From positions 62,001 to 126,000 of the forward strand of contig NZ_BOMB01000010.1 in assembly GCF_016861975.1 (NCBI RefSeq): a DNA stretch of 64,000 nucleotides, given 5' to 3'. Every line of letters starts with the position of its first letter. Within the stretch, counting starts at the first letter, position 1. The notes under the pieces were generated by a model that saw only the letters and a list, made by a program, of their open reading frames with translations, did not search any database and was not told the DNA's origin. Made by a program: the position numbers and the translations under genes. Source of the stretch: Actinocatenispora rupis (GTDB taxonomy: Bacteria > Actinomycetota > Actinomycetes > Mycobacteriales > Micromonosporaceae). Below are positions 8,364-31,532 of this stretch, piece after piece.

Positions 8364-9590
8364 GTGAGTGCTACGACCCTGGCGTCCGCGCCGTACCCGG
8401 TCCTGCGCCGGGCGGCGCTGGCCACCGGCGGCGTCTTCGCGCTGTCCGGTGCCGTCTCGGCCACCTGGATCTCCCGGCTGCCCGAGGTACGGACCGCGCT
8501 GTCGGCGGACCCCGGTTCGCTCGGCGTGGCGCTGCTCGGCAGCGCCATCGGGTCGGTCGCCGCCGCGCCCCTGACCGGCCGGGTCGCCGCCCGCTTCGGC
8601 AGCCGCATCGCGGTCGCCGGCTCGGTGGTCGTCTGCATGGCCGGGCTGGTCGGCCTCGGCCTGGTGCACTCGGTCGTCGCGCTCGGCCTGACCCTCGTCG
8701 TGTTCGGCTTCGGGTTCGGCTCGTGGGACGTCGCCATGAACATCCACGGGCACGGCGTCGAGGCCGCCGCCGGCCGCGCCTGGATGCCCCGGTACCACGC
8801 GGTCTGGAGCGTCGGCGGCTTCGTCGCGGCCGGCATCGGGTCCGCCGCCGCCGGCGCGCACCTGCCCGTACCGGCGCACTTCGCGATCGCCGCCGCCGTA
8901 CTCGGGCTGGGCACGTTCGGGTTGCTGACCCTGTTCCTGCGGGACGGCCGCCACGCCACGCCGGCGGAGTCCGTACGGTCCGGTGCAGAAGCGTCCCGGC
9001 CGCGGCACGCCGGCCGCATCCTCACCTGGCCGTTCGTGATGATGGGCGTCGTGATGGCGTGCGCGACCCTCGTCGAGGGCGCCGCGTCCGACTGGCTCGG
9101 CATCTACTTCAACGACGTACGATCCGCCAGCCCGGCCGCCAGTTCCGCCGCGTTCACGGTGTTCGCGATCGCGATGGCCGCGAGCCGCGCCGCCGGTACG
9201 TGGACGATCGGCCGCCTCGGTCGCGGCCGGGCCGTACGGTTCAGCGCCCTGCTCGCGATGGCCGGCGTCGTGGTACTGCTGCTCTCGCCGGTCACCGCCG
9301 GGGCGTACGTGGGGGCGGCGATGTGGGGGCTCGGCACCGCGATCGTGTTCCCCGCCGTGATCAGCGCGGCCGGCGACACCCCGGGCCGCTCCGCCGAGGC
9401 GATCGCGCTCGTCACCCCGATCGGGTACACCGGCTTCCTGGTCGGCCCGCCGCTCGTCGGCATGATCGCCCGGCACACCGGCCTGGAACACGCGCTCTGG
9501 CTGATCGGCGCGCTCGCCGCGGTGATGGCGCTGCTCGCCGGCGTCACCCGCGAACGGCGCCCCGGCGCGCCCGCCCCCGTCGAGCCCTGA
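8364..9590 (+). CDS. MFS transporter (YbjJ-like)
   Basis: A 408-residue integral membrane protein with about 12 hydrophobic segments. The opening SGAVSATWISRLPEVRTALS followed by LGVALLGSAIGSV, and GRVAARFGSR in the first cytoplasmic loop, match the YbjJ-like branch of the major facilitator superfamily. GTG 8364 has GAAAGG eight bases upstream. The gene stands alone, after the hairpin closing the sugar operon, and converges on the phosphotransferase-fold gene. It is probably an exporter or sugar-type transporter; the substrate is unknown. Confidence 0.82.
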   Translation: MSATTLASAPYPVLRRAALATGGVFALSGAVSATWISRLPEVRTALSADPGSLGVALLGSAIGSVAAAPLTGRVAARFGSRIAVAGSVVVCMAGLVGLGLVHSVVALGLTLVVFGFGFGSWDVAMNIHGHGVEAAAGRAWMPRYHAVWSVGGFVAAGIGSAAAGAHLPVPAHFAIAAAVLGLGTFGLLTLFLRDGRHATPAESVRSGAEASRPRHAGRILTWPFVMMGVVMACATLVEGAASDWLGIYFNDVRSASPAASSAAFTVFAIAMAASRAAGTWTIGRLGRGRAVRFSALLAMAGVVVLLLSPVTAGAYVGAAMWGLGTAIVFPAVISAAGDTPGRSAEAIALVTPIGYTGFLVGPPLVGMIARHTGLEHALWLIGALAAVMALLAGVTRERRPGAPAPVEP

Positions 9591-11003: not shown

Positions 11004-11702
11004 TCACGCGGGCGGCCAGTCCGCCTCGATCAGGGTGAAGAACCGCTCGGCGGCACGGTCCACCGCGGCCCGGTCGCCGGTGGTGAGCACGTCGAGGGCG
11101 AGCCCGCGGGCGACGGCGAGCGCCAGCCGGGCGTCGTCCGCGGCCTTCCCCGCCGGTACGCCCTGGGCGGCGATGAACTCGGTGAGCGGCGCCAGCCACT
11201 GCTCGACCACGCCGTCGAGCAGCGAGCCGGCCGCGGGATCGCCGCGCAGGCCGCGACCGTACAGGTCGAAGAACAGCCGCATGTACGGCGTGAGCGTCGG
11301 GTCGGACAGCTGCCGGTACATGCTGCGCATGGCGCGCCGGGGATCGGTGCCCGGTGCGAGGCCGATGTCGGCGAACGCGTCGCGCTGCCGGCGTTCCATC
11401 TCCAGGGCGACCTCGACAAGCAGCTGGTCCTTGCCGCCGAAGTGGTAGATGAGCATCCGGTGGCTGGTACCCAGCGCCGCGGCGAGTCCGCGCAGCGTGA
11501 GCCCGTCGGTGCCGTGCTCGGCGAGGTGCCCGATGGTGGCGTCGAGGAGCGCTCGGCGTGGCGAGTCCCGGCGCGCTCCGGCGCCCTTCTCCCCGGCACG
11601 GCGTGTCTCCCCGGTACGGCCTGCCTTGGCGCGGGGCACGCCGGCCCTGCGCGCCTCGGTGCTGCGGGCGTCGGTCCGGTGGGGCTCGGCTCGGGCGGGC
11701 AT
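11004..11702 (-). CDS. TetR-family repressor, probably leaderless
   Basis: A 232-residue regulator. After an Ala/Arg-rich N-terminal arm of about 50 residues comes the TetR DNA-binding domain, with the recognition turn LRGLAAALGTSHRMLIYHFG and then KDQLLVEVALEMERRQRDAF. The C-terminal ligand-binding part ends in AERFFTLIEADWPPA. ATG 11702 is directly abutted by a 32-bp palindrome (11702-11733), so no Shine-Dalgarno sequence is possible. Either the transcript is leaderless, or translation starts at a codon further inside the arm. The divergent partner is an SRPBCC gene; repressor and partner probably share the operator, giving autoregulation and control of the SRPBCC gene. Confidence 0.85.
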   Translation of the reverse strand: MPARAEPHRTDARSTEARRAGVPRAKAGRTGETRRAGEKGAGARRDSPRRALLDATIGHLAEHGTDGLTLRGLAAALGTSHRMLIYHFGGKDQLLVEVALEMERRQRDAFADIGLAPGTDPRRAMRSMYRQLSDPTLTPYMRLFFDLYGRGLRGDPAAGSLLDGVVEQWLAPLTEFIAAQGVPAGKAADDARLALAVARGLALDVLTTGDRAAVDRAAERFFTLIEADWPPA

Positions 11703-11733
11703 GTACCAGATGGTACATGTACCATCTGGTACA
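11702..11733. promoter_or_regulatory. Perfect 32-bp palindrome: tandem TetR operator
   Basis: The 32 bases equal their own reverse complement. Internally they are two 14-bp palindromes, GTACCAGATGGTAC (11703-11716) and GTACCATCTGGTAC (11719-11732), separated by AT. Each has arms GTACCA/TGGTAC around two central bases. This suits two repressor dimers side by side. It overlaps the first base pair of the TetR start codon and lies eight bases before the AGGAGG of the SRPBCC gene. Confidence 0.85.
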
Positions 11734-11750: not shown

Positions 11751-12173
11751 ATGCAGGTCGAGACGCAGATCGGGATCGCGGCACCCGCGGAGCGGATCTG
11801 GCGGGTGTGGACGGACGTCGAGCACTGGTCGGACTGGACGCCGTCGGTGACCTGGGTCCGCCGGCTGGACACCGGCGAGTTCGGCGTCGGCAGCCGGGCC
11901 GCCGTCAAGCAGCCGTCCATGCGGCCGATGGTCTGGGAGGTCACCGAGTCCACGCCGGGCGAGTCGTTCGTCTGGACCGCCCGCACCGCCGGCACCACCC
12001 TGGTCGCCGGTCACCGCCTCTCGCCCGGACCGGACGGCACCACCACCGCGACGCTCAGCATGAACCACACCGGCCTGCTCGCGCCCGCGCTCGGCGTCCT
12101 CGTCGGCGGCCGGATCAAGCGGTATCTGGCGCTCGAAGCCGACGGCATCCGCCGCTTCTGCGAGGCGGCCTGA
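11751..12173 (+). CDS. SRPBCC (START/polyketide cyclase-like) ligand-binding protein
   Basis: A 140-residue protein with the SRPBCC opening VETQIGIAAPAERIWRVWTD and VEHWSDWTPSV, then FVWTARTAGTTLVAGHRL and a long C-terminal helix ending LALEADGIRRFCEAA. The fold is a helix-grip pocket for hydrophobic ligands; members act as cyclases, dehydratases or ligand carriers. The ribosome site AGGAGG at 11741-11746 is ideal. It is divergent from the TetR gene and almost certainly under its control through the 32-bp palindrome. It converges on lanM with only an 18-bp gap, but nothing shows a role in lanthipeptide synthesis. Confidence 0.85.
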   Translation: MQVETQIGIAAPAERIWRVWTDVEHWSDWTPSVTWVRRLDTGEFGVGSRAAVKQPSMRPMVWEVTESTPGESFVWTARTAGTTLVAGHRLSPGPDGTTTATLSMNHTGLLAPALGVLVGGRIKRYLALEADGIRRFCEAA

Positions 12174-12191: not shown

Positions 12192-15100
12192 TCAGCGGGA
12201 CATCCGGAGGACGGAGGGAACGGTGGCGGGGGAGGCGGCGCGCAGCAGCCCGTAGCCGATGCCGGCCAGGCCGACCAGCAGCCCGGGACCGGTGCCACCG
12301 CGCGGCATCCCGCCGAGCCAGCCGTACTCGTCGAGCCCGTCGAGGATGCCGGCCAGGTACCGGTCGGCGGCACTGTCCGATGTGGACAGCAGCAGGTCCA
12401 GGTTGCCCAGATCGCCGTGGCAGAGCGAGAAGTCGTGGCCGAAGCCGGCCCGGAGTACGGTGGCGCGGGCGGCGGTCAGCTCGTCGGACGCGCCCGGCAC
12501 GCCGAGGCGGGACAGGCCGACGCCGGTCGCGCCGTGACACCACGCCACCGGGTACGCCGTGGCCGAGTCGCGCGGCACCCGCACGTCCCACCAGGTCCCC
12601 GCGTCCTCGTCGAACAGCGTCCGCTCGTACGCGCGGGCGTCGGCGGCGGCCGCCGCGTACCGCTCGTCGCCGAGCAGGGTGGCCGCGCCGTCCAGCGCCC
12701 ACGCGCAGCCCGCCGCGCCGTGCGCGAACCCGGCCGGCGGCCGGTCCGCGACCGACGCCAGGGTGTCGGGCAGCCAGCCGTGCCCGACCGGCCCCGGCCG
12801 CGCCGTGGCGCACAACCGGTCCGCGCAGCGGCGCACCGCGTCCCGTACCGCGCCGGCCGGATCCGTTGCGTACCAGGCGATCAGGCCGCCGATGCTGCCG
12901 GCGCAGCCGCCGAGTACGTCGAGGGTCGCATCGTCGCCGGCGGTGGCCGCGATCCGCCGGACCAGCCGCGCCGCGAGCCCCGAGTACTCCGGCGACGGGC
13001 GCCGCGCGTGCAGCAGGGCCAGCGCGTACAGCACGCCTCCGGCGGAACCGTAGCCGCCGGTCAGCGTCTCCGCGCGGCGGTCCACCTGGCGGCGCAGCGT
13101 ACGGGCCGCGCCGTCGGCGGCCGCGCCGTACCCGCCGGTCGCGTCGTCCAGGTACGCCAGGAACAGCGCCGGTCCGGCGGTCCCGCCGTACAGTTCGGGG
13201 CCGAGCGGTGCGAGCACCCAGCCGTCCGCGGTCAGGTTGGGCCCGACCCACGCCAGCTCGCCGTCCGCCCGGTACGCCAGCCGTACCAGCTCGTCGCCGA
13301 CGCGCGCCGCCGCCGCCACCGCGCGCTCGCGTACCGCGTCGGGGGTGGTGGGGGTGAACGGGTATCCGGTCGGCGCGGTCTCCGTCGGTGCCACCGCGGT
13401 GATCGCCGCCGCGCAGAGGTCGCGCTGCCGGGCCAGATCGGCTTCGTCGAGCCGATCCAGCCGGTCGAGCACCGCGTCGAGCGCGGACCGCGGCACCGCG
13501 CGCGGGATCGTCGCGCCGGTCGTGGACACCGCGTCGACACCGTCCGCGCGTACGGTGAACAACGGGATGTCGTTGCGCCACAGGTCGTCCCGCTCGTACG
13601 GCAGGAAGTCGGCGACGCCGGGCTGCCGGTCGGCGAGCACCCACAGCCGGTCCAGGTGCCGGTCCCGGTCGAGCGCGTCGCGCAGCAGGTCCGGGTGCAG
13701 CCCGGCGCGCAGCAGCGACCCGTACTCCAGCGTGTCGCGGCGCAGCAGCCGGATCTCGTCGCCGGCGAACGCGCCGAGCAGCTTCCGCACGGATCCCTTG
13801 TCCCCGGCCAGGATCCGGTACGCCTCGGCGAAGCCACTGTCCACATCGGACAGATGATCGACCGGGTGTACGGTCGCGCCCGGCCGCGCGTCCGCCATGC
13901 CCGCCAGCGGCGTCCGCCGGTACGCCACGCGCGCCGTGTCGGTGCCCGCGCCCGCCACCGCCGGTGCCGGGCGACCCGGGTCCGCACCCGGCGCGTACCC
14001 GAGGGCGGAGACGTCGGTGCCGCCGTCGCCGCCGGACGTCCACGACCGTTGCGGCAGCAGCCCGGACCGCAGGACCGAGTGCAGGGTGCCGTCGCGGGCC
14101 GCGACCTCCGCCGGGCCCAGATCCTTGTCCCGGTCGGGAAACTGCGGCTGCAGCGCCGTCTCCAGGTCCACGAGTACCGGCTGGTTGCCGGCGGCCACCA
14201 GGTTCTGCGCGTGGCAGTCCACCGCGTCCAGCAGGTACAGCACGGCGAGCAGGCTGCCCGCCCGGTGGTAGAACGCGGCCGGGTCGTCGCTCGGGTGCGC
14301 CGCCACGTGCTCGACCCAGCCGTACCCGTCGCGGGCCAGCGTCACCGGCATCCGCAGCGGCCGGGCCAGCTGCCCGTTGAGCCAATCGACCAGCGCCGCG
14401 ACGTGCCCGTCCACCGCCACCGACCGCGGCTTGTACACGACCCGCAGCCCGGACGCGAAATCCACCAGCGCGACCGCGCGGCCGTCCCGGTGCCGGTCGC
14501 CCAGCCCGGTCCGGATCGCCGCCACCGGCCCCGGATCCGCCCCGCCGCCGAACGTCTCCGCCAGCGCCGCCCGGTCCGCGGCGAGCCGGGTCAGCAGCTC
14601 GGCGCCCGCGCGTACCCACTGGTCCGCCGCCGTCGTCAGCAACCGCGCCAGCACCGGGTACTCGGCCAGCAACGGCACCGCCACCGCCGGATCGCCAAGC
14701 CCCGCAACGAATTCCGCGTACCGCCCGCGCGGCGTGTCGGCGGTCAGCCGCTCCGTCACCCGCGCCACGTTCAGCTCCAGCAGCATCGTGCGCGTCGCCA
14801 TCTCGTGCGCCGTCACCGCCAGCGCCGGTACGAGCAGCGCCACGTCCGCGGCACGCCCTGGCACCGCCGCCCGGAGCCGGTCCCGCGCGTCGGTCAGCAG
14901 CGGCGACACCAGCGCCGCGAACTCGTACCCGGGTGGGGGAGTGACGGGATCGGCCGCCGCGGGCCGCTCGAACGCCGCGACCAGCCGGTCCACCCAGCCG
15001 CCGCGCACCGGCTCGTCCGGTGGCGCGGCGAGCCACGCCGCCACCGCCGCCTCGTCCGTACCGTCGGCGGCCAGCCGGCGCGCGAACGCGTCGCCGGAGT

Positions 15101-15242
15101 CGAACGGCGGCTGCGCCCGCCACCGCGCCAGGATCCGCGCCGCCCGCGCCCGGGACCGCTCCGTACCGGCGTCGGGGTCCGGCGGCGTTCCCCGCTCCGC
15201 CAACGGAACCGCCCGCGCCGCCGCCCGCCGTAGCTGATCCAC
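12192..15242 (-). CDS. lanM: Class II lanthipeptide synthetase LanM
   Basis: A 1016-residue bifunctional enzyme that dehydrates Ser/Thr of the precursor and then cyclises with Cys thiols. The N-terminal dehydratase has the lipid-kinase-like core: Lys271 in LRVVYKPRSVAVDGH, Asp342 to Asn347 in DAVDCHAQN, and Asp359 in VLVDLETAL. The C-terminal LanC-like cyclase has its zinc ligands: Cys902 in AWCHGATG and Cys941-His942 in SLCHGDLGN, plus FAHGAAG. The start is GTG 15242, with GAGGAGG about five bases upstream. The putative precursor gene lies 70 bp upstream on the same strand, separated by a strong hairpin. All catalytic motifs look intact. No LanT, LanP or LanFEG gene is adjacent. Confidence 0.95.
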   Translation of the reverse strand: MDQLRRAAARAVPLAERGTPPDPDAGTERSRARAARILARWRAQPPFDSGDAFARRLAADGTDEAAVAAWLAAPPDEPVRGGWVDRLVAAFERPAAADPVTPPPGYEFAALVSPLLTDARDRLRAAVPGRAADVALLVPALAVTAHEMATRTMLLELNVARVTERLTADTPRGRYAEFVAGLGDPAVAVPLLAEYPVLARLLTTAADQWVRAGAELLTRLAADRAALAETFGGGADPGPVAAIRTGLGDRHRDGRAVALVDFASGLRVVYKPRSVAVDGHVAALVDWLNGQLARPLRMPVTLARDGYGWVEHVAAHPSDDPAAFYHRAGSLLAVLYLLDAVDCHAQNLVAAGNQPVLVDLETALQPQFPDRDKDLGPAEVAARDGTLHSVLRSGLLPQRSWTSGGDGGTDVSALGYAPGADPGRPAPAVAGAGTDTARVAYRRTPLAGMADARPGATVHPVDHLSDVDSGFAEAYRILAGDKGSVRKLLGAFAGDEIRLLRRDTLEYGSLLRAGLHPDLLRDALDRDRHLDRLWVLADRQPGVADFLPYERDDLWRNDIPLFTVRADGVDAVSTTGATIPRAVPRSALDAVLDRLDRLDEADLARQRDLCAAAITAVAPTETAPTGYPFTPTTPDAVRERAVAAAARVGDELVRLAYRADGELAWVGPNLTADGWVLAPLGPELYGGTAGPALFLAYLDDATGGYGAAADGAARTLRRQVDRRAETLTGGYGSAGGVLYALALLHARRPSPEYSGLAARLVRRIAATAGDDATLDVLGGCAGSIGGLIAWYATDPAGAVRDAVRRCADRLCATARPGPVGHGWLPDTLASVADRPPAGFAHGAAGCAWALDGAATLLGDERYAAAAADARAYERTLFDEDAGTWWDVRVPRDSATAYPVAWCHGATGVGLSRLGVPGASDELTAARATVLRAGFGHDFSLCHGDLGNLDLLLSTSDSAADRYLAGILDGLDEYGWLGGMPRGGTGPGLLVGLAGIGYGLLRAASPATVPSVLRMSR

Positions 15243-15268
15243 CCGACCTCCTCGACGTCCGTACGCGA

Positions 15269-15303
15269 CGCGGCCCCGGCGCCCACCGGACGCCGGGGCC
15301 GCG
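15269..15303 (-). terminator. Attenuator-like hairpin between lanA and lanM
   Basis: A 13-bp perfect stem (15269-15281 with 15291-15303; arm CGCGGCCCCGGCG) closes a 9-nt loop. It occupies most of the 70 bases between the two genes. In lanthipeptide operons a partial terminator here commonly allows far more precursor than synthetase. Confidence 0.75.
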
Positions 15304-15312
15304 CTCAGCCCA

Positions 15313-15501
15313 TCACCACGCGCTGCACAGGTGGTAACAGCTGGAGTACGACTCGCAGGTGTTGAGCGTGCGCCCGCCCGCCGCGGTCAGGTAGATCTCC
15401 GCGTCCGGCGTGCCCGCCGGGTGGTCCGGCATCTCGTCGGCCGTCAGCGACAGCCGGTAGTCCTCGTCTTTCCACGCACGTACGAGATCTGCACCGGTCA
15501 T
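15313..15501 (-). CDS. lanA: Lanthipeptide precursor, mersacidin/lichenicidin-type leader
   Basis: A 62-residue precursor. The leader begins with TGADLVRAWKDEDYRLSL, a pattern known from mersacidin/lichenicidin-family class II precursors, and ends in AAGG (residues 40-43), a double-glycine cleavage site. The predicted core, Arg44 to Trp62, is RTLNTCESYSSCYHLCSAW: three Cys (49, 55, 59) with Thr45, Thr48, Ser51, Ser53, Ser54 and Ser60 as dehydration candidates, so up to three thioether rings. GAGGAGG stands about six bases before ATG 15501. The gene precedes lanM on the same strand. The core resembles no lantibiotic I can recall. A protease/exporter for the GG site is not in the window. Confidence 0.88.
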   Translation of the reverse strand: MTGADLVRAWKDEDYRLSLTADEMPDHPAGTPDAEIYLTAAGGRTLNTCESYSSCYHLCSAW

Positions 15502-15726
15502 TCGGACCTCCTCGTCGGAACGGCTGGAAACAGCGCAATGCTAGAGAGATCCCAACGTACGGGAAAGGTTGCTATGAGATACCCCATTTCCCGGCCGGTA
15601 ACCTGAACCGATCCGCCCCTCACCCAGCGTCGCCACGCCGGCCTCCACCGGCCGGCGCGCCGCGGCGAGTCGTACCGGGATCGGGTTGTGGGTCGGATCC
15701 GTTGTGTCGCAACGGATCCGGGAGTG
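15502..15726 (-). other. lanA upstream region with 11-bp inverted repeat
   Basis: This gap holds the lanA promoter, with locally AT-richer sequence around 15535-15600; no convincing -35/-10 pair was identified. At 15694-15720 CGGATCCGTTG and its exact complement flank the loop TGTCG (11-bp stem). The hairpin begins seven bases after the pentapeptide-repeat gene stop and may be its terminator. Its arms are copies of the dispersed word GGATCCGTTG. Confidence 0.6.
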
Positions 15727-16380
15727 TCACTCGACGGTCAGGCCGAGCTCGGCGGCGAGCTGCGGTGCGATCGTGACCGTCTGGCTGGCGGTGACGCGGG
15801 CGCCGCGCAGGGTGGCGAGGCCGCGCGCGCCGGTGAGCTGGGACGTGCGCAGGTCGCACCCGCGCGCCGTGGCCGCCTGGAACTCGACCCCGGCGAGATC
15901 GCAGTCCAGGAACAGCACGCGGGACAGGTCGCCGGAGATGCGCGCCTGGTCGACCGTGCACCGCTCGAACACGACGAGACCCTTGGTGCGCTCGATGTGC
16001 AGGTGCGCGTAGTCGAGCCGGGTGTCGCCGACGTAGAGGTCGGCGGCGAGGGCGATCCAGACACCCCAGCCGGTCGCCCGGCACGACACCAGCTCGGTAC
16101 GCCGGGCCACCAGGTTCGACCACTGCGCGTTGGAGACGTCGACGCCGGTGAACGACACGTCGGTGAGCGTGAGCGGGGTGTACCGCGTCTCGGCCAGGTC
16201 GACGCGGGACAACACGGTACGGTCGAGGTCGCCGTCACCCTCCGCGCCGGTGAACGAGACCCCCTCGTACCGCGCGCCGGAGACGTCCAGCTCGCCGGAC
16301 AGCTCGCCGCCCTCGGTCAGGTCCTCGTCGATCGTGGGGCGCCGCAGCGACCGCCGCTCGTCGTACTTCCGGAACTCCAT
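15727..16380 (-). CDS. Pentapeptide-repeat protein
   Basis: A 217-residue protein made of A(D/N)LxX-type pentapeptides, for example VLSRVDLAETRY, LTDVSFTGVDVSNAQWSN and VLFLDCDLAGVEFQA, which fold into a right-handed quadrilateral beta-helix. No signal peptide or membrane segment is seen. Known members include DNA-mimic gyrase protectors (Qnr, MfpA, McbG) and many proteins of unknown role. It is transcribed toward lanA and separated from it by a hairpin and 225 bp, so it may be an independent unit. A self-protection role beside the lanthipeptide genes is conceivable but is inference from position only. Confidence 0.8.
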   Translation of the reverse strand: MEFRKYDERRSLRRPTIDEDLTEGGELSGELDVSGARYEGVSFTGAEGDGDLDRTVLSRVDLAETRYTPLTLTDVSFTGVDVSNAQWSNLVARRTELVSCRATGWGVWIALAADLYVGDTRLDYAHLHIERTKGLVVFERCTVDQARISGDLSRVLFLDCDLAGVEFQAATARGCDLRTSQLTGARGLATLRGARVTASQTVTIAPQLAAELGLTVE

Positions 16381-18636: not shown

Positions 18637-21600
18637 ATGCGCGGCTCCCGCGTCCCCCGACCCCGTGCGGCACGGCGGCGCGCCCTCGCGGCGCTGACCG
18701 CGGCGGTGCTCGCGCTCGGCGCGCCCGTCGCCGCCGTCGCCGCACCGCACACCGCGACGCCACCCGCCGCCCCGCGGGTACGGCCGCCGGTGTCGGTCAC
18801 CCTGATCACCGGCGACCAGGTACGCGTCGGCGCGCCGGTCGCCGGTCACCCCGCCGTCACCGTCGTACCGGCGGACCGGGGTGGGCGGCCGGTGACGTTC
18901 CAGACCCGGTACTCCGGCGACGACGTCTACGTGCTGCCGTCCGACGTGGCGAGCCTCGTCCCCGGCGTCCTCGACGCGGAACTCTTCGACGTCACCGCCC
19001 TGGTACGCCAGGGATACGACGACGCGCACCGCGACTCGCTGCCGCTGATCGTCCGGTACGCGCCGGGCACGCGGTCGCTCGCCGCGCCGGCGGGCCTGCG
19101 TACCGGGCGGGCGTTGGGAAGCATCGACGCGGTGTCGGCGAGCCTGGCCAAGTCGGCGACCGCGGGCTTCGCGGACCGGTTGGCGCGCCTCGGTGGGCGC
19201 CGCACCGTCAGCCCGCGTACGGCCGGCGCCGCGCTGGGCGGCATCGCGAAGGTGTGGCTGGACCGTACGGTGCGGGCGGACACGTTGGATGCCAACCTGA
19301 CCCGGATCAGCGCGCCGGCCGCGTGGGACGCCGGTCTCGACGGCGCCGGCGTGCGGGTGGCGGTGCTGGACAGCGGCGTCGACGCCGGGCATCCGGACCT
19401 GGCGGGCCGGGTCGGCGACAGCGCGAGCTTCACCGGCTCGGCCACCGCCGACGACGACAACGGTCACGGTACGCACGTCGCGTCGCTGCTCGCCGGCAGC
19501 GGCGCCGCGGCCGACGGCGCGCGCCGGGGCGTGGCGTACCGCGCGGATCTGGTGGTGGGCAAGGTACTCGCGGCCAACGGCACCGGTCAGCTGTCCTGGG
19601 TGATCGCCGGAATGCAGTGGGCGGTGGCGGAGCACGCGAGCGTCGTCAGCATGAGCCTCGGCGCGCCGCCCGCCGCGGACGACCCGGTCGCGGCGGCCGT
19701 GGACGAACTGTCCGCGTCGTCGGACACCCTGTTCGTGGTGGCGGCCGGGAACAGCGGGCCGGGCAACGGATCGATCGAGAGTCCCGGCATCGCCGCGGCG
19801 GCGCTGACGGTCGGCGCGACCGACGGAAACGACGCGGTGCCGTTCTTCTCCTCGCGCGGGCCGACCCGCGGCGACCACCGCCTCAAGCCGGAGATCACCG
19901 CGCCGGGTGTGTCGATCACCGGGGCGCGCGCCGGCGGCGGTACGGGCAACCCGTACACGCAGCTGTCGGGGACCTCGCAGGCGACGCCGCAGGTGGCCGG
20001 TGCCGCCGCGCTGCTGCGGCAGGAGCATCCACAGTGGACAGCCGCGCGGGTGAAGGCGGCGCTGTCCACCACCGCCTCGGCGTACGCGAAGGGGACGGTG
20101 TGGGACCAGGGTGCCGGGCGGCTGGACCTGGCCCGTGCCAGCACGACCGCGCTGACCGCCGATGTGTCCACTGTGGACTTCGGGGCGGTGCGCTGGCCGC
20201 ACGCCGGGCCCGTGACGAAAACGGTGACGCTCACGAACGACTCGGCCGCGGCCGTCACCGTCACCCCGTCCGCGACGTTCGCCCAGCGGTCCGGTACGGC
20301 CGCGCCGGCGGGTACGCTCGCCGTCGCACCGTCCACCGTGGACGTACCGGCGCACGGGTCGGCGGCGGTCACGGTGACGCTCGACCCGAACAGCGGTCCG
20401 GCCGCGGAGTACGGCGGAACCCTCGTGCTGGCAACGGATTCCGGTGACCTGCGGCTGCCCGTCGGCGGCTACGTCGAGCCGGAACGCTACGACGTGTCGG
20501 TCACCGTGACCGACCACCTGGGCCGACCCTACGCGTACGGCCGGGCCGACGTGGTGAACGCCGACAACGTCAACGGGGCGTCCGCGTTCAACGTACCGCT
20601 CGACGCGCACGGCCACGGTACGGCGCGCGTCGCGCCCGGCTGGTACAGCGTGCAGTCCCGGGTGGAGACCGACGAGGCGGACGGCACCGTGGAGTCGGTC
20701 GCGTTCACGGGCGACCCGGAGGTGCGGGTCGCCGGTGACACCGCGGTCGCGCTGGACGCCCGCGACGCCGTGCCGCTGGTACCGACGAGCGTGCCGCACG
20801 TGCCGACCCGCGTCGACCAGGCCCAGGTGTACGAGAGCCGGTACGACGCCGGCCAGGGCGGGTACATCGACTCGATCCTGCCGTCCGCCGACGACCTGGC
20901 GCAGCACCGGGTACTCGTGCAGCCGACCGCGCCCGTCACCCACGGCGTGTACGGCCTGACCACCCGGTTCCGGTTGCTGCCCACCGGAAAGCGCGCCCCC
21001 GCCGACGTGTACGACGTGGTGCAGCAGAGCCCGGTCGTGCCGAGGACCGGCGCGCTGCCGTTCGGCGAGCGGGACGTGCGCGACCTGGCCCGGCTGGACG
21101 TCACGTACCACGCGCTCGGCGCGCCGGCGACGACGGACGAGATGCGCGCCGACTACACGGATCTGGCGCCGATGGCGGTCGGCGCGTACCGGCCGGTGGC
21201 GTTGCCGTCGCGGCGCACCGAGCTGGTCACCGCCGCGCCGGGCGTCCGGTTCCAGCAGGAGGTCCGCACCCCGGGCGCCGCGTCCGCGCGACTGTACGAC
21301 CCGGTCACCGTGTACGAGCCGGGGGAGCGGCGTGCCGTGCACTGGTTCCGTACGTTGGCGCCCACGGTGGTCGACGCCCCGCGGTACCCGACGAACCAGT
21401 GGCTGGTGACCGGGCTCGGCGACGGCGAACACGCCGGCAGCTGGGGCACCGGCAGCGTCTCCGCGGCCACCCTGGCGCTGAGCCGCGATGGCACCCCGGT
21501 CGGCGCCAACACCTGGACCTACGGGTACTTCCCGGTCGCGGCCGGCCCCGCGACGTTCACCGCGGACAGCACCGTGACCGTGGATCCGGCCCGGTTGAGC

Positions 21601-22005
21601 GGATTCGCGTCGGCGCGGACGCGCTGGACGTTCTGGTCCCGCCCCACCAACAACCCCGGGTACGAGGCCGCGCCGCAGCCCGCGGTCCCGGTCCTCGACT
21701 ACCAACCGGCGCTCGACTCCACCGGCCACGCCGTACCGGGGCGGCCGACGGTGCTCGGGCTGCGCGCCACGCACGTCTCGCAGGCGACCCTCCCGGCCGG
21801 CACCTTCCGCACCGTCACCCTCGCGTACTCCAGCGACGCCGGCGCGACGTGGCACCGCGTGCACCTCGCCGGCACCGCCGGCCGGTACGCCGGGGTGGTG
21901 CCCGCGTTGCCCTCCGGTACGGCGGTGTCGCTGAAGGCCGCGGCGACCGACAGCGCGGGCAACGCGATCGAGCAGACGGTGATCGGCATCTGGCGGGTGC
22001 GCTGA
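18637..22005 (+). CDS. Secreted subtilisin-like (S8) serine protease, multidomain
   Basis: A 1122-residue exported protease. The signal is RRRALAALTAAVLALGAPVAAVAA, followed by a propeptide of about 190 residues. The S8 triad is clear: Asp in VAVLDSGVDAGHPDL, His in NGHGTHVASL, and Ser in GTSQATPQVAGAAALL, with the oxyanion Asn in VAAGNSGPGNG. About 600 further residues form beta-rich C-terminal domains starting TADVSTVDFGAVRW and ending TVIGIWRVR. There is no sorting signal or C-terminal membrane segment. GGAGG precedes ATG 18637. It is divergent from a TrmB-like regulator gene; this gene pairing is common in actinobacteria. The gene carries three copies of the STVD-encoding palindrome. Confidence 0.93.
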   Translation: MRGSRVPRPRAARRRALAALTAAVLALGAPVAAVAAPHTATPPAAPRVRPPVSVTLITGDQVRVGAPVAGHPAVTVVPADRGGRPVTFQTRYSGDDVYVLPSDVASLVPGVLDAELFDVTALVRQGYDDAHRDSLPLIVRYAPGTRSLAAPAGLRTGRALGSIDAVSASLAKSATAGFADRLARLGGRRTVSPRTAGAALGGIAKVWLDRTVRADTLDANLTRISAPAAWDAGLDGAGVRVAVLDSGVDAGHPDLAGRVGDSASFTGSATADDDNGHGTHVASLLAGSGAAADGARRGVAYRADLVVGKVLAANGTGQLSWVIAGMQWAVAEHASVVSMSLGAPPAADDPVAAAVDELSASSDTLFVVAAGNSGPGNGSIESPGIAAAALTVGATDGNDAVPFFSSRGPTRGDHRLKPEITAPGVSITGARAGGGTGNPYTQLSGTSQATPQVAGAAALLRQEHPQWTAARVKAALSTTASAYAKGTVWDQGAGRLDLARASTTALTADVSTVDFGAVRWPHAGPVTKTVTLTNDSAAAVTVTPSATFAQRSGTAAPAGTLAVAPSTVDVPAHGSAAVTVTLDPNSGPAAEYGGTLVLATDSGDLRLPVGGYVEPERYDVSVTVTDHLGRPYAYGRADVVNADNVNGASAFNVPLDAHGHGTARVAPGWYSVQSRVETDEADGTVESVAFTGDPEVRVAGDTAVALDARDAVPLVPTSVPHVPTRVDQAQVYESRYDAGQGGYIDSILPSADDLAQHRVLVQPTAPVTHGVYGLTTRFRLLPTGKRAPADVYDVVQQSPVVPRTGALPFGERDVRDLARLDVTYHALGAPATTDEMRADYTDLAPMAVGAYRPVALPSRRTELVTAAPGVRFQQEVRTPGAASARLYDPVTVYEPGERRAVHWFRTLAPTVVDAPRYPTNQWLVTGLGDGEHAGSWGTGSVSAATLALSRDGTPVGANTWTYGYFPVAAGPATFTADSTVTVDPARLSGFASARTRWTFWSRPTNNPGYEAAPQPAVPVLDYQPALDSTGHAVPGRPTVLGLRATHVSQATLPAGTFRTVTLAYSSDAGATWHRVHLAGTAGRYAGVVPALPSGTAVSLKAAATDSAGNAIEQTVIGIWRVR

Positions 22006-31364: not shown

Positions 31365-31378
31365 CCCGCGCGAGCGAC

Positions 31379-31403
31379 TCCGGCAGCCAGTCCGGCTGCC
31401 GGA
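31379..31403 (+). terminator. Terminator hairpin after the GH13 gene
   Basis: TCCGGCAGCC (31379-31388) and GGCTGCCGGA (31394-31403) form a perfect 10-bp stem with the loop AGTCC, 15 bases after the stop. Confidence 0.75.
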
Positions 31404-31532
31404 TCGTCGGCGGCGCCGCGGTACCGGGGCGGCACGCGGTGCCGCGCACGCCGCCTCCGTGGTGCCCGACAACCCGCTCGACGGGGACCTGTCGGCGCGG
31501 CCGAACGGGGCGGGCACGGTAGGGTCGGCGCC

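Follow-up and report, generated by a model that had tools for sequence, protein, structure and literature searches.

A compact class II lanthipeptide gene pair in Actinocatenispora rupis and its small precursor family

Does a short open reading frame next to a LanM-type synthetase gene in Actinocatenispora rupis encode a genuine lanthipeptide precursor, and does its unusual core peptide stand alone? The question was raised by a 64,000-nucleotide stretch of contig NZ_BOMB01000010.1 (hereafter the window), in which an earlier note had picked out a complete LanM beside a 62-residue precursor (LanA) with a mersacidin/lichenicidin-type leader. Both open reading frames are present on the minus strand at the positions claimed, and both proteins pass the respective NCBIfam cut-offs. 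The genes lanA and lanM are a class II lanthipeptide pair, and their locus is real, intact and compact. We consider it highly probable that they constitute a minimal two-gene class II cassette making a small thioether-ringed peptide.

LanA scored 39.4 bits against the mersacidin/lichenicidin family TIGR03898 (curated cut-off, 23.5), in agreement with the proposed leader type, and matched no Pfam family. Relatives introduced below scored above the same cut-off (39.2 bits in Fodinicola feengrottensis, 30.9 at locus L036 and 42.8 at L095). For LanM, a score of 712.4 bits was obtained against TIGR03897 (curated cut-off, 304), and the Pfam domains DUF4135 (dehydratase) and LANC_like (LanC-like cyclase) mark it as a bifunctional synthetase. 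Among solved structures, it matched LicM2 (E = 2e-85) and CylM (E = 1.7e-31). Moreover, residues D249, H251, K271, D342, H344, N347, D359, E361, R498 and T504, which we take to be the counterparts of the CylM catalytic residues, are identical in the CylM alignment and were also placed by motif. Identity with LicM2 extends to the zinc ligands C902, C941 and H942, which match those of CylM only in a weak second segment (2.6 bits).

That lanA is not a chance open reading frame follows from its relatives, which adjoin a LanM gene in five other genomes. Full-length matches were found in all four Actinocatenispora genomes, counting the window's own (G000, 7.83 Mb in 81 draft contigs, completeness 96.8%; the others are G001 to G003), and lanA also lies beside lanM in two genomes of Fodinicola (genus g184), those of F. 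feengrottensis (G770) and of a second member (G748). The family loci are the window, L035, L036 and L037 in Actinocatenispora, and L095 and L096 in Fodinicola. Given these relatives in three other Actinocatenispora and two Fodinicola, the window core is no orphan. In broader searches, the window LanA matched 36 of 354 genomes of the family Micromonosporaceae and a LanA alignment (A1) matched 12 of 394 genomes of the class, both at E ≤ 0.01, while a further alignment (A2) matched 17 of 397 genomes of the order at E ≤ 0.001; the three genome sets overlap, and those of class and order are samples of larger groups. The precursors inspected from outside Actinocatenispora and g184, a subset of the matches, had the leader alone in common with LanA. 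Finally, when genome contigs were scanned, the LanA alignment returned 330 pattern matches and two relatives (F. feengrottensis and A. comari), and LanM as query returned 14 pattern matches and no relatives.

A tree of 23 LanM rows placed the proteins of the window, two other Actinocatenispora and the two Fodinicola in a single clade with a support of 100/100. Both pieces of the split L036 copy were left out of this tree, the F. feengrottensis row is a shortened protein, and the window row was flagged for unusual composition; the tree does not settle the branching order within the five-member clade. The window LanA is 58% identical to that of F. feengrottensis versus 47% to those of its own genus, and transfer between genera or an old divergence are possible readings of this placement across two genera. 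Comparison with F. feengrottensis by NG86 gave a nonsynonymous distance (dN) of 0.394 and a synonymous one (dS) of 1.16, values that are indicative only, this dS being near saturation. Among the three other Actinocatenispora, dN was 0.007–0.03 and dS about 0.21.

The predicted window core, taken after the GG of the leader, is RTLNTCESYSSCYHLCSAW. Its three Cys and six Ser/Thr, its SAW ending and its lack of a CTxTxEC pattern, all described in the earlier note, are borne out by direct reading. As the leader ends somewhere from E35-I36-Y37 to G43, the true core would lie within RTLNTCESYSSCYHLCSAW or be slightly longer. The 19 residues that follow GG have a calculated [M+H]+ of 2223.93 when unmodified, 2169.89 after three dehydrations and 2115.86 after six. 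The corresponding cores are LSLNTCEFATSCFRICSN in F. feengrottensis, KSLNTCEHRSSCGRICSA in the second Fodinicola, and ASTCNYASVTCSHICSCAI (two genomes) and ASTCNYASVTCAHICSCAA (one genome) in the other Actinocatenispora. By direct reading, TxTxEC is absent from all six. The pattern [ST]LNTCE..[ST]SC.[HR][IL]CS is common to the window core and both Fodinicola cores, and when five precursors of the family were aligned, that of G748 being left out, the core columns T48, C49, C55, C59 and S60 proved invariant. The terminal Ala-Trp is not conserved, the SAW ending occurring within the family in the window genome alone. In line with the claim that the core resembles no known lantibiotic, searches of the open-licence literature for the core strings, and for class II lanthipeptides together with Actinocatenispora, returned no paper; supplementary precursor tables were not covered by these searches, and a listing there is possible. 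The six loci found here in two genera represent a new sequence family within a known kind of system.

How the three Cys might be bridged was approached with a rule by which, proceeding from the C-terminus, each Cys is joined to the closest free Ser/Thr that precedes it by three residues or more; it is reported as correct for 92 of 100 known lanthipeptides (PMC11251773). The rule was coded here without its labionin step, and no core shows a labionin motif by eye. Applied to the window core, it predicts T2-C6, S8-C12 and S11-C16 (code SCSSCC), and applied to both Fodinicola cores, S2-C6, T5-C12 and S11-C16 (code SSCSCC). As SCSSCC is the pattern of Pep5, the prediction does not establish the new ring topology considered possible in the earlier note. 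The lack of conservation of S8 means that either ring patterns differ between family members or the rule is wrong here; the window core allows 24 N-to-C pairings, nine of them non-crossing, and none could be selected. Cys6 most likely pairs with Thr2 (core numbering), by analogy with one of two published forms of lichenicidin alpha, that of strain VK21, for which nuclear magnetic resonance placed Abu3-Cys7 together with dehydroalanine 5 and dehydrobutyrine 6 (PMC9863751; Abu, aminobutyrate). The window core has Asn at the position of Ser5 of lichenicidin alpha. This precedent is disputed, as dehydroalanine 5-Cys7 was reported for I89, whose precursor sequence is identical (PMC9863751). A further point against is that, under the bridging rule, the first Cys finds no partner in the other Actinocatenispora cores unless the core starts further upstream (the VSTG start, tried on the L036 core).

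Between the two genes lies a hairpin (Table 1) with a fold z-score of −3.77, one of 200 shuffles being equally stable. Long hairpins were found in the lanA-lanM gap of all six loci, with z from −2.68 (L035) to −5.85 (L036) and with stem sequences that differ between loci; in the three other Actinocatenispora, where the gap is longer, folding covered its initial 100 bases. As a control, 51 same-strand gaps of the same stretches were folded, the L036 lan gap being left out, and the five lanA-lanM gaps ranked 3, 4, 5, 6 and 11 by z. It counts against a special status that z ≤ −2.8 was also reached by six of the 46 other gaps, so that by z alone the lan hairpins are unexceptional. Stem length separates them more clearly: stems of at least 13 pairs were present in 5/5 lanA-lanM gaps versus 3/46 of the others, the three Actinocatenispora lan gaps being related to each other. 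A promoter and terminator consensus scan of 15200–15800 found none, and the hairpin has no T run. The hairpin is common to the family and unusually long, and it is probably a partial terminator or an RNA-stabilising element that would keep precursor output above enzyme output. The same control scan also brought out two other gaps with z < −4.4, at 31365–31532 of the window and at 13809–13877 of L095.

Table 1. Features of the lanA-lanM locus (window coordinates).
Feature	Position	Strand	Description	Evidence
lanA	15313-15501	-	62-aa class II lanthipeptide precursor, ATG start	TIGR03898 39.4 bits, cut-off 23.5
lanM	12192-15242	-	1016-aa class II synthetase, GTG start	TIGR03897, Pfam, LicM2/CylM similarity
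Predicted ribosome-binding site of lanA	15507-15513	-	GAGGAGG	direct reading
Predicted ribosome-binding site of lanM	15247-15253	-	GAGGAGG	direct reading
Hairpin in 70-base lanA-lanM gap	15268-15304	-	17-pair stem, loop GGU	fold z-score

The start of the core after GG, as taken in the earlier note, is not supported. The leader ends in AAGG in the window, in STGA in the three other Actinocatenispora and in neither GG nor GA in both Fodinicola, and no C39 (LanT-type) peptidase was found in the window genome; with GG not conserved and C39 not found, cleavage after GG is unsafe. At E ≤ 0.001, PF03412 (C39) matched nothing in G000 or G002; G001 has one match, on a contig other than that of lanA, and G003 has two, at a distance of about 4.4 Mb. 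Against the absence of a LanT stands the state of the assemblies, since G000 is an incomplete draft in which a C39 gene could have been missed, and G002, a single contig, is listed as 96% complete. The C39-bearing frames of G001 and G003 were also used as tblastn queries on 21 fetched stretches (18 loci, the two Fodinicola and the window). A C39 region was detected in eight (L039, L040, L041, L044, L045, L046, L047 and L048) and in none of the other 13 (window, L035, L036, L037, L038, L042, L043, L049, L050, L051, L052, L095 and L096), which include all six family loci; in the L052 stretch no LanM was seen either. All nine stretches of a nine-row LanM clade (window, L035, L037, L038, L042, L050, L051, L095 and L096) are without C39, as are those of L043 and L049, which lie outside it. 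GG or GA was present near the core in the inspected precursors of C39 loci (that of L041 not among them) and absent from the precursors of L042, L050, L051, L095 and L096 of the C39-less clade. The L038 precursor was flagged for GG/GA owing to letters elsewhere in its sequence, and L049 has a GG with no C39 in its stretch.

All six family members retain E[IL]Y in the leader. This motif resembles the cleavage motif of AplP-type M1 peptidases and may equally be a recognition element for LanM. AplP-type enzymes take off class III leaders, cutting after E-(I/L)-(L/Q) among other motifs, and a related enzyme does so for a class IV leader (PMC10885120); such enzymes are not universal, since one of AplP-like type did not work on a class III precursor unrelated to its own (PMC8960859). 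M1 peptidases gave five matches in each of the four Actinocatenispora genomes, and as matches also occurred in 8 of 14 control genomes, their presence shows possibility only. A bolder proposal, which we regard as doubtful, is that a whole branch of actinomycete class II systems has dispensed with LanT, that an unclustered housekeeping M1 (AplP-like) protease cuts at or after E[IL]Y with subsequent trimming as in classes III and IV, and that the product carries interlocked rings (Thr/Ser2-Cys6, Thr5-Cys12 and Ser10 or 11-Cys16). The conventional class II route, in which a C39 transporter with its gene outside the locus would cut after GG, would be favoured by the AAGG and STGA leader ends and by the distant C39 genes of G001 and G003. 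However, the lack of a C39 match in G000 and G002, and of GG or GA in both Fodinicola precursors, makes it unlikely.

For the two-gene cassette, the computed protein families, active-site residues, relatives, hairpin and missing C39 lead us to infer the following course of dehydration, ring formation, cleavage and export. LanM would bind the mersacidin-type leader and phosphorylate and dehydrate some of the core Ser/Thr, after which its zinc LanC domain would add the three Cys thiols to dehydro-residues, yielding a peptide about 19–25 residues long that bears up to three rings. The hairpin would let the precursor be made in excess of the enzyme. As no LanT was found, leader removal and export are assigned to proteins that would be encoded elsewhere. 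With regard to bioactivity, any antibacterial or signalling role is conjecture.

The surroundings of the pair vary between loci. Among window genes called from 2 to 28 kb, by a crude caller that took at least one doubtful frame near 9.7–11 kb, only lanA and lanM had counterparts (E ≤ 1e-8) in the regions fetched for the five relatives. In G748, lanA is preceded by clpX and a major facilitator superfamily (MFS) gene, in the same order as in F. feengrottensis, and in A. comari the neighbours are an FGE-sulfatase-like gene and a metallophosphatase gene. An MFS exporter was considered as a common part, the two Fodinicola MFS proteins being 64.6% identical over 291 amino acids and encoded directly before lanA in both; it was ruled out, as no specific relationship to them was seen for the two window MFS proteins tested or for the L037 one (E of 0.012 or worse). 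A subtilisin-family protease gene (18637–22005, plus strand; Peptidase_S8, 185 bits), 3.1 kb from lanA, was considered as a dedicated LanP. Only partial matches (36–44% identity), none full-length, were obtained in the other three Actinocatenispora, and the lan regions fetched gave none with E ≤ 1e-8. It was therefore excluded from the system and is a possible leader protease for the window genome alone. Adjoining lanA on the same strand is a pentapeptide-repeat gene (15727–16380), with Qnr/MfpA-like matches far under cut-offs and no match in the relatives' fetched regions. On the other side, a perfect 32-base palindrome (TGTACCAGATGGTACATGTACCATCTGGTACA, 11702–11733) sits where a TetR-type regulator gene (11004–11702, minus strand) and a polyketide_cyc2 gene (11751–12173, plus strand) start in opposite directions, and is likely an operator of this regulator.

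A decaying or silent pair, with the peptide no longer made, would be consistent with the finding, subject to the crude gene calls, that no transporter, protease, immunity or regulator gene is common to the loci. Two of the six lanM copies as sequenced also weigh against a functional cassette: in G003 the gene is split between two frames (L036, 10209–13522), and in F. feengrottensis it is shorter than its relatives (L096, 10000–12792), through either sequencing error or decay. Yet the window copy is intact with the presumed catalytic residues present, the three Cys together with [ST]LNTCE persist from one genus to the other, and dN is far under dS among the other Actinocatenispora, which leaves silence quite improbable.

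The window genome holds a second class II locus (L038, contig C8, 175000–194500) whose precursor, at 8825–9031 and ending STSTSSAGCSQWSGGLCCC, adjoins its own LanM, 43% identical to the window LanM and near the CCC-core loci. It is least probable of all that LanA is one half of a two-component lantibiotic with this precursor (core ...STSTSSAGCSQWSGGLCCC) as partner, for although a second class II locus exists in the same genome and its LanM falls within the nine-row clade, each precursor has its own LanM, and a leader-pattern search, which divergent leaders would escape, turned up a single precursor in the window and a single one in the stretch of each relative. Two further LanC-like proteins (PF05147) of this genome, encoded at about 160150–160998 of contig C3 and at 2668–3747 of contig C47, perhaps belong to other lanthipeptide classes. 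Elsewhere, L009, L046 and L063 (two genomes of Micromonosporaceae and one of another family) are two-precursor loci with cores that resemble roseocin alpha and beta.

The sequence family is small and compact, and its conserved pattern of Cys and Ser/Thr is accessible to direct two-gene co-expression. Together with its sister loci, it offers a clean case for class II leader processing where LanT is missing; LanT-free processing or interlocked rings, if true, would add interest.

Among known systems, lichenicidin alpha is, like the window core, the LanM product of a TIGR03898 precursor with an N-terminal Thr-Leu-x-Thr-Cys stretch. Lichenicidin has a LanT, whereas none was found for the window core, which has three Cys and no CTxTxEC. 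Lichenicidin alpha differs further in its four rings, its mersacidin-like C-terminal part and its partner peptide (PMC9863751). The mersacidin/actagardine group shares the leader family and the synthetase class; unlike it, the window family lacks CTxTxEC, does not conserve GG/GA and has no MrsT-type C39 transporter that could be found. The likeness to Pep5 lies in the bridge code only, SCSSCC denoting one ring followed by two overlapping rings; Pep5 belongs to class I and differs in enzymes and sequence, and the window code is a rule-based prediction. Closest outside the family are the LanMs of the Micromonosporaceae class II loci L038, L042, L050 and L051 (38–44% identity), among which we know of no characterised member. 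These loci share with the window RAWTD leaders and the lack of C39 in the fetched stretch, and are set apart from its family by cores that end in CCC or CCAC.

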